NCBI GenBank assembly: GCA_017410325.1
Contig: JAFQRA010000019.1
Coordinates: forward strand, 1-64,000
DNA from: Clostridia bacterium
GTDB taxonomy: Bacteria; Bacillota; Clostridia; Oscillospirales; Acutalibacteraceae
Direction: 5' to 3'
DNA length: 64,000 bases
Shown here: piece by piece, positions 44,208-49,459 of the stretch
How the letters are laid out: every line of letters begins with the position of its first letter
Position numbering within the stretch: the first letter of the stretch is position 1
The notes under the pieces: model-generated
Database searches by the model: none
Seen by the model: only the letters and a program-made list of their open reading frames with translations
What the model was told of the DNA's origin: nothing
Position numbers and translations under genes: made by a program

Positions 44208-44834
44208 ATGAAAGCAATGACATTAAATTTAAAGGATTTCAGTTTGCCGATAGACCGAATAAAAGAAGAAGCCGCCCTGCACAGGCGGCTGATACTGCTG
44301 TATGCTGTTTTTACGGGCGGATGCTTTGCAGGTGCTTTGTTATATTCGAATACAGCGGATACAGTGTCGGAATACATAAATAACGCGCTTGAAGTAATGT
44401 TTGATTCGGGTTTTTCGCAAAATTTGCAGATAACTTCGTCAGCCTGTCTTATTCCGCAGGTTATAACTGCGCTTTGCAGCTTCAGTGCACTCGGTCTGCC
44501 GTTTATTCTGCTTTGTCCGGCTGTATGCGGTATGATATTATCGGCAATTATTTCATATCTTTATTGCAATTTCGGTGTTGACGGTGCAGTATTTTCATTA
44601 ATTCTCATTTTACCGTGTGCTGTTGTGTTTTTTTTAATGCTTCTGATAGGCTCAAACGAAGGCTTGATACTTTCTGAAATTGTTGCCGGAAGTGTTTTTT
44701 CAGCACACAGACAGGGCAGGGGAGAGCTAAAGGGTTTTCTGCTAAGGTTTGTAATAATTATTGCGGTAAGCTTTGCTGTTGCGGCACTTGAGGCTTTTTG
44801 CATAAGTAAATTCGGAAAAACGTTACTTTTTTGA
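44208..44834 (+). CDS. spoIIM: SpoIIM-like integral membrane protein
   Basis: 208 residues with about five membrane helices. It has the SpoIIM layout: a short cytoplasmic start, a first helix (LILLYAVFTGGCFAGALL), a soluble segment around 55-80 and the closely packed helices after 88. In Bacillus, SpoIIM is part of the DMP complex that drives peptidoglycan removal during engulfment. Divergence is large, so this is a fold-level call. Its last 12 bases overlap the convergent recombinase gene. Confidence 0.65.
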   Translation: MKAMTLNLKDFSLPIDRIKEEAALHRRLILLYAVFTGGCFAGALLYSNTADTVSEYINNALEVMFDSGFSQNLQITSSACLIPQVITALCSFSALGLPFILLCPAVCGMILSAIISYLYCNFGVDGAVFSLILILPCAVVFFLMLLIGSNEGLILSEIVAGSVFSAHRQGRGELKGFLLRFVIIIAVSFAVAALEAFCISKFGKTLLF

Positions 44835-45803
44835 TTTCTTTTCTTTCTTTACCTGTGCCAAGGGATTAGCGTTAATTGCAGAACGAATCTGTTCATTTGC
44901 GACGTGAGTATAAATCTGCGTGGTTGCAAGGCTTTCATGGCCGAGCAATTCTTTTAAAAGCATTACATCAACGTCACCGTGCTGATACATCAGCGTTGCG
45001 GCAGTGTGGCGCAATTTGTGAGTGGAATATCCTTCAAGACCGGCTTTTTCAAGATATGTTTTTACTATATGCTGTACAGTCTTCGGACTAATTCTGGTCT
45101 TATGCCTGCTGATAAAAAGCGCTTCGCGGTCTTTAACGCCGTCTCTGGGCCTGACAGCAAGGTAGCTGTTAAGCGCATCCGTACAGGCTTTATTGAGATA
45201 AACCATACGCTCCTTATTGCCTTTACCCAAAATTCGCAAGCTTCCGTCAATACCGATGCTCTTAAGGTTCAGCCCAACAAGCTCCGACAAACGTAAACCG
45301 CAGTTTAAAAAAAGTGTGATAATACAATAATCCCTTTCATAATTGGTGCCTTCAACAGCGTCAAGCAAAGCAATACTTGAGTCAAGCGTAAGATACTTCG
45401 GAAGCGCTTTTTTTGCACGCGGTGCATCAAGATCCTCCGCAGGGTTTTTCTCGATTATTCCGTGCGCTTTAAGGAATTTAAAGAAGCCGCGCAAAGTAGA
45501 TGCTTTACGAGCTCTGGTTTTACCGCTGTTTTTAAGTTCACGCTGACAATAGGCAAGAAAAGAATACAGGTCATTAAGCCTGATATTACGCATAAACTCT
45601 TCGTCAAGTCCTGAAATGTCGTATTCGTTCAGAGGTTTAGTTTCCTTTGATTTGTCACGGCTCATCAGACACCAACGGAAAAAAGTTCTCAAATCCGAAG
45701 CGTATTCAAGCACTGTTAAATCAGATTTGTTTCGGACAGCCGTCTGATAATCAAGATAACCCTTGACGGTATCCGGTAAAAAGCGTAATTCATCTTTTTT
45801 CAT
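44823..45803 (-). CDS. XerC/XerD-type tyrosine recombinase
   Basis: 326 residues from the ATG at 45803, with GGAGGA upstream; a longer in-frame start at 45827 lies beyond this site. The N-terminal SAM-like core-binding domain spans about 1-120. The catalytic domain has Arg in CGLRLSELVGL, the His-x-x-Arg box in HKLRHTAATLM, His in LLGHESLATTQ and the Tyr in IYTHV. It resolves chromosome dimers at dif, or acts in a mobile element. It is in the usual Xer size range and has no partner gene here. No dif site is visible in the window. It faces the AT-rich gap at 45.8-46.7 kb. Confidence 0.85.
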   Translation of the reverse strand: MKKDELRFLPDTVKGYLDYQTAVRNKSDLTVLEYASDLRTFFRWCLMSRDKSKETKPLNEYDISGLDEEFMRNIRLNDLYSFLAYCQRELKNSGKTRARKASTLRGFFKFLKAHGIIEKNPAEDLDAPRAKKALPKYLTLDSSIALLDAVEGTNYERDYCIITLFLNCGLRLSELVGLNLKSIGIDGSLRILGKGNKERMVYLNKACTDALNSYLAVRPRDGVKDREALFISRHKTRISPKTVQHIVKTYLEKAGLEGYSTHKLRHTAATLMYQHGDVDVMLLKELLGHESLATTQIYTHVANEQIRSAINANPLAQVKKEKKSKK

Positions 45804-46280
45804 AGGGCAAAATCCTCCGCCGAACATTTGTTTATAGGGGATTGAGAATCAGTAATGAAAGGGTAATCAAAACAGAATTTAATGATTTCTGTAGATTTGA
45901 TATAAAAGCGCGCTTTGATATATGAATAATGCATTGCAAGCAGATAGGCAAGAAAAATTAAGACATTGAATGGACGGATTTAATTTATTGAGAATCAGAT
46001 GCTCGATTTAAATCCGCTCAGTTTTTTTGCAACGACCAAAGTATCGTTTAAAAAATTTCTATCGGATGAGAAACAGACTGCAGCAAACAAAAACAAGAAA
46101 ACCGCTCACAGCGAAGATACAAGTGTAAAATTAAAAAAGAAAAAGAACTGAAATAAAAAATTTTTCTGATAACAATATAAATTGTAATACAGTGTTAAAG
46201 AACAATCAATATAAAATTATAGTAAAGATATGAGAAAACGTTGAAACATCAACGCTTGTGGTGTCTTTATTATAAATACA
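45804..46280. other. AT-rich intergenic stretch with no convincing gene
   Basis: It contains two direct copies of ATTGAGAATCAG (45841-45852 and 45987-45998), 146 bases apart. A 50-codon ORF at 45999-46151 starts directly after the second copy but has no ribosome binding site. Its product is lysine-rich and would be a weak prediction. A small stem CGTTGA/TCAACG is at 46239-46254. Nothing else stands out. Confidence 0.4.
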
Positions 46281-46440: not shown

Positions 46441-46470
46441 TTGACAAATGCATTTGTTTAGTGCTATATT
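46441..46470 (+). promoter_or_regulatory. Promoter of the leader-controlled operon
   Basis: Perfect TTGACA at 46441-46446 and TATATT at 46465-46470, 18-base spacing. The leader ORF starts 27 bases after the -10. Confidence 0.8.
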
Positions 46471-46496
46471 GTCAAAAAATCAATTGAGGTAAAACC

Positions 46497-46604
46497 ATGA
46501 TTACATATCTTACTAAAAAATTTGATATGAATATGGATTGGCTTGCACAGCATGATTATCAGTATCGCTTGCAGGCTTATACCTCTGTATTCATTTTGGA
46601 ATAG
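46497..46604 (+). CDS. 35-codon leader peptide, probable attenuation sensor
   Basis: The ATG has GAGGT seven bases upstream and the ORF ends in TAG. The peptide starts MITYLTKKFDMNMDWLAQH and ends SVFILE; it has no signal sequence and no run of one amino acid such as His or Trp. The stop lies 26 bases before a strong terminator that precedes the methyltransferase gene. The segment CTTATACC at 46576-46583, inside the ORF, can pair with GGTGTAAG at 46634-46641, the terminator's left arm. That is the layout of ribosome-mediated attenuation. A ribosome-directed inhibitor, rather than one amino acid, is the likely signal; this is inference. Confidence 0.65.
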   Translation: MITYLTKKFDMNMDWLAQHDYQYRLQAYTSVFILE

Positions 46605-46630
46605 TAAGACTTATATTTCAAAATGTTTAT

Positions 46631-46674
46631 AACGGTGTAAGTAGCTGCAGATACTTACACCGTTAATTTTTTAT
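46631..46674 (+). terminator. Attenuator terminator before the methyltransferase operon
   Basis: A perfect 13-bp stem AACGGTGTAAGTA/TACTTACACCGTT, loop GCTGCAGA, then AATTTTTT. It lies between the leader ORF stop and the AGGAG of the next gene. Confidence 0.9.
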
Positions 46675-46692
46675 ATTCAAAGGAGAAAACTT

Positions 46693-47529
46693 ATGAAGTT
46701 ATTTGATTTAATCAAAAGAAAGCTATTTAAAAAGAAGCCTCAAACTACAGGAAATCATCTTGTCGATTTTTATAACAGAATTGATGAGGACTCTCGTCTG
46801 CTGTCAAAATGCGGTCAGATTGAGTTTTTGACTACCGTTAAATACATTGATAAATACCTGCAAAAAGGTATGAAAATTATTGAAATCGGTGCAGCCACGG
46901 GCAGATATTCCCATCATTTTGCAAGAAAAGGCTTTACTGTTGAAGCTGTTGAGCTAATTGAGCACAACATTGAAGTTTTTAAAGCCAACACCATGCCCAA
47001 TGAAAAAATCAATATTATACAAGGCAATGCTGTCGATTTATACGTTTATCCGGACAATAGCTTTGATGTATCGCTTTTACTCGGTCCTATGTATCATTTG
47101 TATACGGTTGAAGAACAGAAAAAAGCGTTATCAGAGGCGCAACGCATAACAAAAAGCGGCGGTTACATTTTTGTTGCCTACTGTATGGTTGACCCCTCGG
47201 TACTAACCCGTGCTTTTGCCGAAAACCGTCTGCAGGAGTTTATCGATACCGAATTAATAAACATCGACACCTTTGAAACCTTCTTTCCTCCGCACGGCGT
47301 ATTTAAGCTGTACACAAGGGATGAGATTTTTGATTTGACAGACAGCCTTAATGCTAAAAGGCTTCATTTCGTTGCAACAGACGGCTACGCTCCGCATATG
47401 AGTAAATCCGTTGAAAAGATGGATGATTTCACTTATGAAACCTACTTGAGATATCATTTTAAAAACTGTGAACGGCAGGATTTAATCGGAATGTCGCCGC
47501 ACACACTTGAAGTATTGAAAAAGGAGTAA
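46693..47529 (+). CDS. Class I SAM-dependent methyltransferase
   Basis: 278 residues. After a basic leader (KRKLFKKKPQ) the SAM fold has motif I IIEIGAATGRYSHHFARKG, motif II around GNAVDLYVYPDNSFDVSLLLGPMYHL and a post-motif KSGGYIFVAY. The C-terminal third carries the acceptor domain. There is no rRNA-methylase (Erm) or small-ribosome motif I can name, so the acceptor is unknown. It is the first structural gene behind the leader ORF and terminator, with CAAAGGAG as ribosome binding site. It is cotranscribed with a phosphodiesterase 4 bases downstream. Confidence 0.82.
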   Translation: MKLFDLIKRKLFKKKPQTTGNHLVDFYNRIDEDSRLLSKCGQIEFLTTVKYIDKYLQKGMKIIEIGAATGRYSHHFARKGFTVEAVELIEHNIEVFKANTMPNEKINIIQGNAVDLYVYPDNSFDVSLLLGPMYHLYTVEEQKKALSEAQRITKSGGYIFVAYCMVDPSVLTRAFAENRLQEFIDTELINIDTFETFFPPHGVFKLYTRDEIFDLTDSLNAKRLHFVATDGYAPHMSKSVEKMDDFTYETYLRYHFKNCERQDLIGMSPHTLEVLKKE

Positions 47530-47533
47530 TTTT

Positions 47534-48646
47534 ATGTTTAAGCATTTGAATTATGAACGAAGTATATTATCCTTAACTGCCTCGGTGCAAAAGCATTTCG
47601 GCGTAAAAGCCGAGCACTCTCCCCTGCCCGAATTTGATAAACTTCTGGAGAAAAATTATAAAAACGTTGTTTTAATGTTGTTTGACGGACTCGGCGTATC
47701 CGCAATTAACGAGCACCTGCCCGAAGATTCATTTTTAAGAAAGTACCTTGTTTGCGGAATTTCTTCCGTTTTTCCGTCAACAACCGTTGCCGCCACCGTT
47801 ACGGTAATGACCGGACTTTCCCCTGCCGAACACGCCTGGCTTGGATGGGATTTGTATTTTAAGGAAATCGGCGAAAACGTTGCCGTGTTCCGCAACACAT
47901 TACAGAAAGACGGCAAACCTGCCGCCGATTATAACGTAGCCCGTAGGTATATCCCCTATAAGGATATATTTGAACAAATTGAACAAGTAAACGGCAAGGG
48001 CACAGCTTACTGTGTTTCACCATTTTCAAAATACCGTTCAAAAAATGTTCGTGATATCTGCAAAACAGTAAAAAGGTTGACTCATAAGAGAAAGAAGAAA
48101 TATATCTATACATATTGGTATCAGCCCGACAAAGCTATGCATGATTATGGCGTAAAAAGCCGACAGGCATACGAGCAGATTTTACTTATAAACAACGAGG
48201 TTGAAAGGCTTTGCAAACGCCTTAAAAACACAGTTGTTATTGTTACGGCCGACCACGGACTGTGCGACAGCGTTAACGTTTATCTTGAAGATTATCCCAC
48301 TCTTTCCGCAATGCTTAAAACACCCCCTTCGATTGAGCCAAGCAGAGCCTTGAGCTTCTTTGTAAAAGAAGGTATGCTTGAAGAATTCAGAAATGAGTTC
48401 AACCGTCATTTTGGTGATGATTTCATACTTATGACAAAAGAAGAAGTATTTGCGGAAAATCTTTTGGGATTCGGCAAGCCTCACCCGAGAACGTATGATT
48501 TTGTCGGAGATTTCCTCGCAATAGCAACGGGAGAAAAATCGTTGTTTATTGAACGAGAAGAACACACATTTACTGGAGTTCACGCAGGACTTACCAAGGA
48601 AGAATTGACGGTACCGTTTATTTGTATTGAGAGGGATAGCTTATGA
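47534..48646 (+). CDS. Nucleotide pyrophosphatase/phosphodiesterase-like alkaline phosphatase superfamily protein
   Basis: 370 residues. The first metal ligand is D51 in MLFDGLG. The nucleophile loop is FPSTTVAAT (Thr83/84). The second-metal ligands are D199 and H203 in PDKAMHDYG, then D240-H241 in TADHGLCD, and a late His in FTGVHAG. This is the full two-zinc set of the NPP/autotaxin branch. No signal peptide is present, so it should act inside the cell. It hydrolyses a phosphodiester or pyrophosphate, substrate unknown. It starts 4 bases after the first methyltransferase and overlaps the second by 4 bases (ATGA), so the three work together. Confidence 0.82.
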   Translation: MFKHLNYERSILSLTASVQKHFGVKAEHSPLPEFDKLLEKNYKNVVLMLFDGLGVSAINEHLPEDSFLRKYLVCGISSVFPSTTVAATVTVMTGLSPAEHAWLGWDLYFKEIGENVAVFRNTLQKDGKPAADYNVARRYIPYKDIFEQIEQVNGKGTAYCVSPFSKYRSKNVRDICKTVKRLTHKRKKKYIYTYWYQPDKAMHDYGVKSRQAYEQILLINNEVERLCKRLKNTVVIVTADHGLCDSVNVYLEDYPTLSAMLKTPPSIEPSRALSFFVKEGMLEEFRNEFNRHFGDDFILMTKEEVFAENLLGFGKPHPRTYDFVGDFLAIATGEKSLFIEREEHTFTGVHAGLTKEELTVPFICIERDSL

Positions 48647-49407
48647 AAATAGAAAATATTGATAATGGAAACACTTTTGATTTCGGAAAAACCTCTGCCG
48701 AATATGCAAAATACAGAGATATCTATCCTAAAGAGTTATATCATAGACTATACGAACTCGGCGTAGGACACAAGGGCTGCTCGTGGCTTGATATTGGCAC
48801 GGGAACAGGTGTTTTACCTCTTAACATGTACTTATATGGTGCGGATATTAAAGCAATAGATATTTCAGAATGTCAGATTGATGCCGGAAAACTATTGGCA
48901 AAAGAAAAAGGTGCAGAAAACATTGAGTTTTCTGTTTCTCCAGCAGAAGAAACACCATTTGAAGATAATAGTTTTGACTGCATTACGGCGGCACAGTGTT
49001 TCTGGTATTTTGATCGTGAAAAGATTATCGAAGAAATTAAACGCTTGTTAAAACCGAACGGAATTTTTGTGAAGATTTATATGAGCTATACTCTCCTTGA
49101 TGAGATAGCGAAGAGGTCACATACACTTGTTAAAACGCTCAACAAGAATTGGACTCCCGGTGCATCCGGTTCAAAGGATATGTATAATCATCCTTTTGTA
49201 AACGGTCAGCTTGATATTTTTGATTGCAAACTCCCGTTTACCCGTGAAAGCTGGCACGGCAGAATGATTGCCTGCCGAGGCACAAAAGCTTCTATGGACA
49301 AAGAAACATTAGTTAGGTGGGAAAAAGCGCACACGGAATTACTTTCAAAATATCCGAAAGAGTTTGAAATCAACCACAAAATCTATATCGCAACATATAA
49401 GTTATAA
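48643..49407 (+). CDS. Class I SAM-dependent methyltransferase
   Basis: 254 residues. Motif I is WLDIGTGTGVLPLNMYLYG, motif II AIDISECQID, motif III SVSPAEETPFEDNSFDCITAAQCFWYFD, typical of small-molecule methyltransferases of the Methyltransf_11 type. The C-terminal domain (ESWHGRMIACRGTKASMDKE) holds the acceptor. The start overlaps the stop of the phosphodiesterase gene in ATGA, so translation is coupled. It is the last gene of the leader-controlled operon. It is not closely similar to the first methyltransferase, so the operon carries two different methylation steps or two acceptors. Confidence 0.82.
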   Translation: MKIENIDNGNTFDFGKTSAEYAKYRDIYPKELYHRLYELGVGHKGCSWLDIGTGTGVLPLNMYLYGADIKAIDISECQIDAGKLLAKEKGAENIEFSVSPAEETPFEDNSFDCITAAQCFWYFDREKIIEEIKRLLKPNGIFVKIYMSYTLLDEIAKRSHTLVKTLNKNWTPGASGSKDMYNHPFVNGQLDIFDCKLPFTRESWHGRMIACRGTKASMDKETLVRWEKAHTELLSKYPKEFEINHKIYIATYKL

Positions 49408-49426: not shown

Positions 49427-49459
49427 AAGGCTTGTGCGACAATCAATCGTACAAGCCTT
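49427..49459. terminator. Bidirectional terminator between the methyltransferase operon and nrdR
   Basis: AAGGCTTGT/ACAAGCCTT stem with an inner GCGA/TCGT pair and loop CAATCAA. The minus-strand side runs into TTTTGTAATTTT, so it ends nrdR well. Confidence 0.8.

Follow-up and report, generated by a model that had tools for sequence, protein, structure and literature searches.

The element described here is a predicted transcription attenuator that precedes a three-gene methyltransferase operon in a Clostridia bacterium (family Acutalibacteraceae; contig JAFQRA010000019.1 of assembly GCA_017410325.1). The window is the whole stretch of 64,000 nucleotides that was analyzed, and all positions are given on its plus strand unless noted. 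The promoter, TTGACA-18-TATATT with a TG before the −10 hexamer, lies at 46441–46470. The leader open reading frame (ORF) occupies 46497–46604, and its predicted translation product of 35 residues is MITYLTKKFDMNMDWLAQHDYQYRLQAYTSVFILE. Its ribosome binding site, GAGGT (46486–46490), starts 11 bases upstream of the ORF. The hairpin of an intrinsic terminator follows at 46630–46665, with an 8-base loop and a T run from 46666. The first gene of the operon (MT1, 46693–47529) encodes a class I S-adenosylmethionine methyltransferase of 278 residues, as assigned by Pfam and modeled by AlphaFold2 with a mean pLDDT (predicted local distance difference test) of 88.7. After a 4-base gap, an NPP-type phosphodiesterase of 370 residues (PF01663) is encoded at 47534–48646. 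An ATGA overlap leads to the third gene (MT2, 48643–49407), for a BioC/UbiE-like class I methyltransferase of 254 residues identified with Pfam. The first-pass annotation of this DNA had proposed the promoter, the 35-codon leader with its own ribosome binding site, and the three linked genes, and their coordinates were confirmed in the sequence. The terminator that it had described, with 13 base pairs, is present with its T run; the hairpin has 14 pairs in the window and 13 in the family consensus.

Genome contigs queried with MT1 yielded 32 loci. The promoter, leader, and terminator are shared by the 21 loci in which MT1 is at least 65% identical, and together with the window these make up 22 close copies. 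The 21 loci belong to metagenome-assembled genomes of Clostridia or Oscillospiraceae, 16 of them from sheep, goat, or deer gut samples. TTGAC is retained in 20 of the 22 promoters and TTGA in all of them. Leader residues D10, M11, W15, L16, A17, and D20 are unchanged in 22/22 close copies, and the CTT and GCA codons within W15-L16-A17 are also fixed at the third base. D10-M11 and W15-L16-A17 constitute the conserved upstream part of the leader in this clade. The other 11 loci (MT1 identity at most 47%) are without a leader of the window type, and inspection of these 11 for small ORFs with a LIPLY-like motif revealed nothing convincing. In three of them (L022, L026, and L031) a different leader and terminator are located upstream of a GNAT-methyltransferase operon. 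This second leader type, from metagenome-assembled genomes of Lachnospiraceae, reads MQDMN..YVVYPVW..QWGLFADG in L026 and L031 and is diverged in L022.

Among the 22 close copies, three of the 14 terminator pairs are changed on both sides, a number reached by 16 of 500 shuffles. The 15 cells changed on both sides and the covariation score of 0.157 were each reached by 0 of 500 shuffles. Region R3 (GGUGUAAGUAGCUGCA, 46634–46649) comprises the left arm of the terminator together with its loop, and pairing and covariation identify region R2 of the leader (UGCAGGCUUAUACC, 46570–46583) as its alternative partner. The core of this antiterminator, 46576–46583 with 46634–46641, is fully paired by eight base pairs that include one G-U, and the pairing of CUUAUACC with GGUGUAAG is found in 22/22 close copies. 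The antiterminator is lengthened by TGCAG (46570–46574) with CTGCA (46645–46649). Two inner stems, the left strands of which (UGUA and CAU) lie within 46586–46594 and the right strands within 46623–46631, stack inside it in 22/22 close copies; they pair 46586–46589 with 46628–46631 and 46592–46594 with 46623–46625. With the right arm of the terminator omitted, RNAalifold returned the core together with the helices GCAG/CUGC (21/22), UAUA/UAUA (22/22), and CAU/AUG (22/22). When the window leader was dinucleotide-shuffled 400 times, 4 of the shuffles formed a duplex with the terminator arm as good as the one observed.

R2 has a second partner in the window clade. Region R1 (GGCUUGC, 46540–46546), which coincides with codons W15 to A17, pairs with GCAGGCU at 46571–46577, and all seven pairs were obtained by RNAalifold from the whole sequence in 22/22 close copies. 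In the window this helix was equaled by 3 of 300 shuffles. R1:R2 is thus assigned as a protector helix, absent from the first-pass annotation, and from comparison of the close copies it makes the attenuator of the window clade a four-region switch of the trp type. Another leader segment, CUUGCAC (46542–46548), was considered as the second partner of GGUGUAAG; 99.4% of its cells pair, without covariation, and R1 is the better fit by RNAalifold. The second leader type of L022, L026, and L031 also displays R1:R2 complementarity (2/300 shuffles in L031) and R2:R3 complementarity.

Like elements occur beyond the close clade. A pattern search of 398 genomes located 17 places, spread over 16 of them, of which the places L045, L049, and L055 look unrelated; one place, L043, lies before a tandem GNAT gene. 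Protein searches identified like elements before the more distant MT1 homologues of L063, L066, L079, and L093. A covariance model (model R1, not to be confused with region R1) was constructed from 12 close copies, L043, and L079 and was searched in 394 genomes of the order. Of its 18 matches in 15 genomes, L099 and L100 (own genus), L115 and L116 (antisense), and L114 (without a fitting gene) were set aside. The 13 matches that remain are on the sense strand and outside the genus. Their first downstream genes comprise 12 for class I methyltransferases, of more than one kind, and one acetyltransferase/GNAT gene (L109), of which eight were assigned by Pfam, L102, L107, and L110 by alignment only, and L104 and L108 by judgment of the sequence. 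Ten of the 12 methyltransferases were aligned with MT1 and are 22–49% identical to it. At L110 about 190 bases separate the terminator from the start of the gene. A second model (model R2), made from 21 copies, was run on 391 genomes and gave 15 matches, which fall in 12 of them. It recovered the L063 site, which was outside the training set, at an E value of 2.8e-6 and located L129, upstream of a GNAT-methyltransferase fusion. Five matches were counted as real (L117, L118, L119, L120, and L129, the first three being from the training set). The others were discounted: L130 is an antisense palindrome, and neither a methyltransferase nor a GNAT gene follows L121–L128 or L131. In L129 the GNAT and methyltransferase domains are contained in a single ORF (1623–2993) behind the leader element, and this fusion suggests that the two activities act together.

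A simple scan for a short ORF with a Shine-Dalgarno sequence, a terminator, and a gene matched 38 of 75 MT1-type loci. These are 30 close-clade loci (22 distinct ones and 8 repeats), L063 twice, L066, L079, L093, L026, L031, and L097. The match at L097 is spurious, with its "gene" about 2.7 kb from the methyltransferase, and at L031 the scan selected a hairpin other than the terminator used for the duplex and protector tests. After removal of two repeats (L077 = L063 and L094 = L068) from 45 distant loci, the scan matched 22/22 close and 6/43 distant loci, versus 1/186 other genes of the same loci. The exact R2...R3...R4 pattern was found only in the own genome among 391 genomes of the class and not at all in viral contigs. 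With tblastn, the leader peptide gave no match in plasmids; in phages it gave 62 records with a best E value of 1, and one of the best 20 of these 62 covers 80% of the query. MT1 was absent from the viral contigs searched. Plasmids did contain MT1-type genes (16 and 23 records, none of which reached 60% identity), and no credible leader was seen for the best plasmid copy (L096) or for the copy in the phage collection (L097). At L069 and L072 the seeming end of a TetR-type regulator was noticed by eye directly before the MT1 homologue, and other members may be under repressor control instead. No Rfam 15 family reached its gathering cut-off in the 64 kb window or in 20 relative loci. A full-text literature search, with thin coverage of subscription papers and preprints, returned no recognizable description of this leader or operon; no methyltransferase is mentioned in the accessible part of PMC2965389.

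The R2 × R3 core was examined for covariation in 22 loci (5 close and 17 distant), for which the segments were picked and registered by hand and each was checked in its locus; L066, L129, L022, L026, and L031 are excluded from this set. In the aligned core, 168 of 176 cells are paired, against a mean of 161.7 when the R3 segments were re-dealt among the loci, and Watson–Crick pairs fill 133 cells against 120.1. When the close clade was thinned to two members (19 loci), 144 of 152 cells are paired against 137.9. Each of the three observed values was reached in 0 of 5000 re-dealings, a count that is not a strict probability because the loci are related. Changes on both sides of a pair convert U-A to C-G in L017 and, at another pair, in L109; A-U to G-C in L093, L110, and L113; and C-G to U-A in L109, L111, and L063. 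Relative to shuffled leaders, the leader/arm duplex is rare (4–6/400) in the window, L043, and L093 and uncommon (21–26/400) in L017, L079, L066, L031, L026, and L022. The mutual exclusion of terminator and antiterminator that had been read from the window alone, with 46576–46583 against 46634–46641, is complete there and is supported by this covariation; leader-peptide transcription attenuation, as first proposed, is likewise favored by the conserved leader, the terminator, and the antiterminator. A lack of conservation of the leader ORF or of the alternate pairing in relatives would have counted against that proposal, and both proved to be conserved in 22/22 close copies. By these comparisons the attenuator is real, and the class to which it belongs is wider and apparently undescribed.

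The R2 core is read in all three frames. Among 25 leaders (6 of them close copies, with R2 of L066 and L129 assigned by likeness), it falls in frames 0, 1, and 2 in 15, 5, and 5 cases, respectively, and like R2 RNA yields LIPLYSF-, AYTSVFI-, and GLYCRTQ-like peptides. The stop codon ends 16–34 bases behind the R2 core, and in 19/25 leaders this distance is 20–25 bases. Even within the close clade, the C-terminus of the leader is frame-shifted in the window, L001, and L002 relative to the 19 other copies; two substitutions of L002, TAT to TAC and ACC to ACT, leave the peptide of the new frame unaltered and preserve the pairing. The reading of R2 in three frames argues for selection on the RNA and not on a C-terminal arrest peptide, and the RNA is conserved more than the C-terminal peptide. 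The peptide RLIPLYSFWDR, considered as an arrest-peptide sensor for the class, was rejected on the same ground.

The genes behind these elements are modular. A methyltransferase, a phosphodiesterase or phosphorylase, a GNAT protein, and a second methyltransferase occur among the cargo, for which Pfam gives generic methyltransferase, NPP, PNP_UDP, and GNAT domains. The methyltransferase-phosphodiesterase-methyltransferase operon of the first-pass annotation is therefore present in the window as one of several cargo versions and not as a fixed unit. In the phosphodiesterase, residues D51, T84, D199, H203, D240, H241, and H350 are invariant in 16/16 sequences, and we take these to be the NPP metal-binding Asp/His set and the Thr nucleophile. 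MT2 is below the cut-off of every NCBIfam family among the matches listed (25 of 33). PADLOC returned mad2 only, by way of the methyltransferase part. The solved folds closest to the MT1 model are those of CmoM and TM1389. In the close clade, the N-terminal ~20 residues of MT1 (46693–46752) are rich in Lys, look amphipathic, and have low pLDDT; 10 of 11 distant MT1 matches begin only at residues 17–25.

In a trp-type attenuator such as E. coli trpL, a leader ORF is followed by alternative pairings of a protector (R1:R2), an antiterminator (R2:R3), and a terminator (R3:R4). All four regions are recognized in the window, with R1 inside the ORF and R2 shortly before the stop codon. The differences from trpL are that there is no run of regulatory codons, that the genes are not amino-acid genes, and that most distant leaders tested have no detectable R1. 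Given the usual ribosome footprint, a ribosome whose P site is at about codons 10–19 would cover R1 and leave R2 exposed, and one at the stop codon would reach back to R2. We infer that the region 46441–46673 works as a ribosome-position switch, in which a ribosome translates the leader while RNA polymerase transcribes it. A ribosome that runs to the stop codon would sit on or against R2, so that R3:R4 could pair and transcription would terminate. If no ribosome is present, R1:R2 would pair in the window clade, again with termination. A ribosome stalled over R1, at about codons 10–19 around the invariant Trp15, would cover R1 and free R2; R2 would then pair with R3, the terminator would be blocked, and the methyltransferase operon would be transcribed. 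In 10/25 leaders (L043, L079, L093, L101, L102, L104, L105, L108, L111, and L113) a Trp codon lies 14–15 bases before the R2 core. This is about the last position that would leave R2 free, and it would suit a drug-stalled ribosome as well as a hungry Trp codon.

The presence of the diverged element before methyltransferase and acetyltransferase genes in other Clostridia suggests that the operon is most likely an inducible protective cassette. From the sequences compared here, we consider it probable that the ribosome-position switch opens such a cassette, for detoxification or target modification, under translational stress, and a response to, and protection from, translation inhibitors is the likeliest reading. 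Drug-inducible attenuators of resistance genes are known in Firmicutes, including B. subtilis yxjB/tlrB (PMC6851288) and vmlR (PMC9226507). According to the accessible parts of these sources, control by a leader and attenuation is common to both and to the present operon, and the tlrB and vmlR products guard the ribosome. The present cargo, in contrast, belongs to no known resistance family, and the reading of R2 in three frames argues against a fixed C-terminal arrest motif. The initial comparison with inducible resistance genes thus holds in part, for the type of cargo (methyltransferase, acetyltransferase, and nucleotide-cleaving enzyme), its modular make-up, and its presence or absence at one site (see below); it fails for membership of a known resistance family and for a C-terminal arrest peptide.

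Several observations weigh against this reading. No product is above the cut-off of a named resistance family, all NCBIfam matches listed being below their curated cut-offs, in agreement with the earlier remark that the products match no known resistance family. Within the 22 close copies the antiterminator covaries at one cell only and 240 of 500 shuffles are as good, because too little variation exists in that set. The leader/arm duplex of L063 is no better than its shuffles (175/400), and the terminator arm of L066 pairs best with leader codons 11–15 and not with its counted R2. Of 23 leaders tested, five (window, L043, L103, L063, and L031) have an R1:R2 helix better than shuffles at p < 0.05, so the protector is a feature of the window clade and of a few other leaders, not of the class. 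L108–L113 score 32–38 bits under model R1 and antisense matches to palindromic terminators reach 39.7 bits; the weaker loci are therefore supported by their leader ORF, their pairing, and the downstream gene. In the scan, 37 of 43 distant methyltransferase loci are without an attenuator, although leaders of L022 and L068 (= L129) were later seen by hand or by model.

The strongest competitor is a general sensor of translation stress that responds to many drug classes and controls housekeeping or damage-repair genes rather than resistance, a reading that we regard as a real, if lesser, possibility. The precedent is the E. coli toiL-topAI-yjhQ-yjhP operon, in which, by the accessible part of PMC12121999, an upstream ORF responds to ribosome stalling and senses at least five antibiotic classes; the genes after it include one for an acetyltransferase (yjhQ) and one for a methyltransferase (yjhP). 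The frame independence of R2, which speaks against a single arrest peptide, also suits such a sensor. The mechanism differs, however: the same part of that source describes occlusion of a ribosome binding site and Rho-dependent termination for toiL, and the terminator here is intrinsic. Homology of the methyltransferases was rejected as well, since BLASTP of YjhP gave E values of 0.82 with MT1 (not detectably homologous) and 0.046 with MT2 (not convincing).

A codon-specific attenuator that senses a shortage of charged tRNA, most likely tRNA-Trp, with cargo directed against an aminoacyl-tRNA synthetase inhibitor or amino-acid stress, appears unlikely. A Trp codon precedes the R2 core in 20/25 leaders (6 of the 25 being of the close clade), at the 14–15 base spacing in the 10 noted above, and W15, which overlaps R1, is invariant. 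The leaders are partly homologous, so these counts are not independent, and the codon is missing before R2 in L107, L109, L112, L063, and L129. Neither a run of adjacent Trp codons nor Trp-related cargo is found; the Trp codon before R2 is single in the close clade, and at most three, non-adjacent, occur in any leader examined (L026). A Met-codon leader at L128, a weak match to model R2 (34.9 bits), would be a parallel case. There, at about 1440–1540, a leader ORF rich in Met (MDCLVNKTIYGSMQMMCRMLHDLWPLSLYS) and a terminator, GGTGTAAG, precede a gene from about 1700 that by eye looks like a methionyl-tRNA synthetase gene; it is possibly an attenuator with Met codons where a T-box would be expected.

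Methylation of tRNA or another RNA by MT1, as a CmoM-like adaptation of decoding under stress, is improbable. CmoM is the tRNA cmo5U34 methyltransferase, and three of the tRNA-contact residues named in the accessible part of PMC10516636 (K12, N16, and K22) correspond to N21, D25, and D31 of MT1, in a register set by hand with Y27/R35 = Y18/R26. The hhalign comparison gave a probability of 94.3 over 190 columns at 13% identity, a value that generic class I methyltransferases may also reach, CmoM being the sole family compared. The fold shared by MT1 and CmoM shows no function, and with this identity and the loss of the three contact residues CmoM-type tRNA methylation was rejected as the main explanation. 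That the hairpin arose by chance, with an unremarkable promoter, a short ORF in decay, and the terminator of an upstream transcript, is scarcely credible, for although the frame-shifted leader C-terminus of the window, L001, and L002 could suggest decay, the conservation, the covariation, the recurrent link to the same gene types, and the silent, pairing-preserving changes of L002 oppose it.

A more ambitious form of the protective-cassette reading is offered tentatively. An unrecognized attenuator class, shared by unrelated protective genes across Clostridia, might sense a stalled ribosome by its position alone and switch on an undescribed resistance cassette. The substrate of this cassette might be a nucleotide-like translation inhibitor met in the ruminant gut, which the methyltransferases, the GNAT protein, and interchangeable nucleotide-cleaving enzymes (an NPP phosphodiesterase or an AMP-nucleosidase/phosphorylase-like protein) might destroy together. 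A leader-peptide attenuator is a good sign that the genes after it guard translation. In this case a single RNA element, retained through frame changes that altered its peptide, marks gut-bacterial methyltransferases and acetyltransferases without an assigned function. R2 and R3 provide a sequence handle for finding more such genes, and what these enzymes protect against becomes directly testable.

The operon of the window is flanked by nrdR and a tyrosine-recombinase gene. In two congeners (L133 and L134) the same two genes adjoin each other about 220–240 bases apart and the operon is absent; both congeners carry a copy of the operon elsewhere (L012 and L009). The leader travels with the genes. 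In the other five of the seven nrdR loci no recombinase gene is within reach of nrdR, and these loci therefore have no bearing on presence or absence. The recombinase gene beside this site (44823–45827) is XerC/XerD-like and scores below both equivalog cut-offs. Between MT2 and nrdR a hairpin, AAGGCTTGT...ACAAGCCTT, was noticed by eye at 49427–49459; on the minus strand its tail is rich in T, and it is probably the terminator of nrdR.

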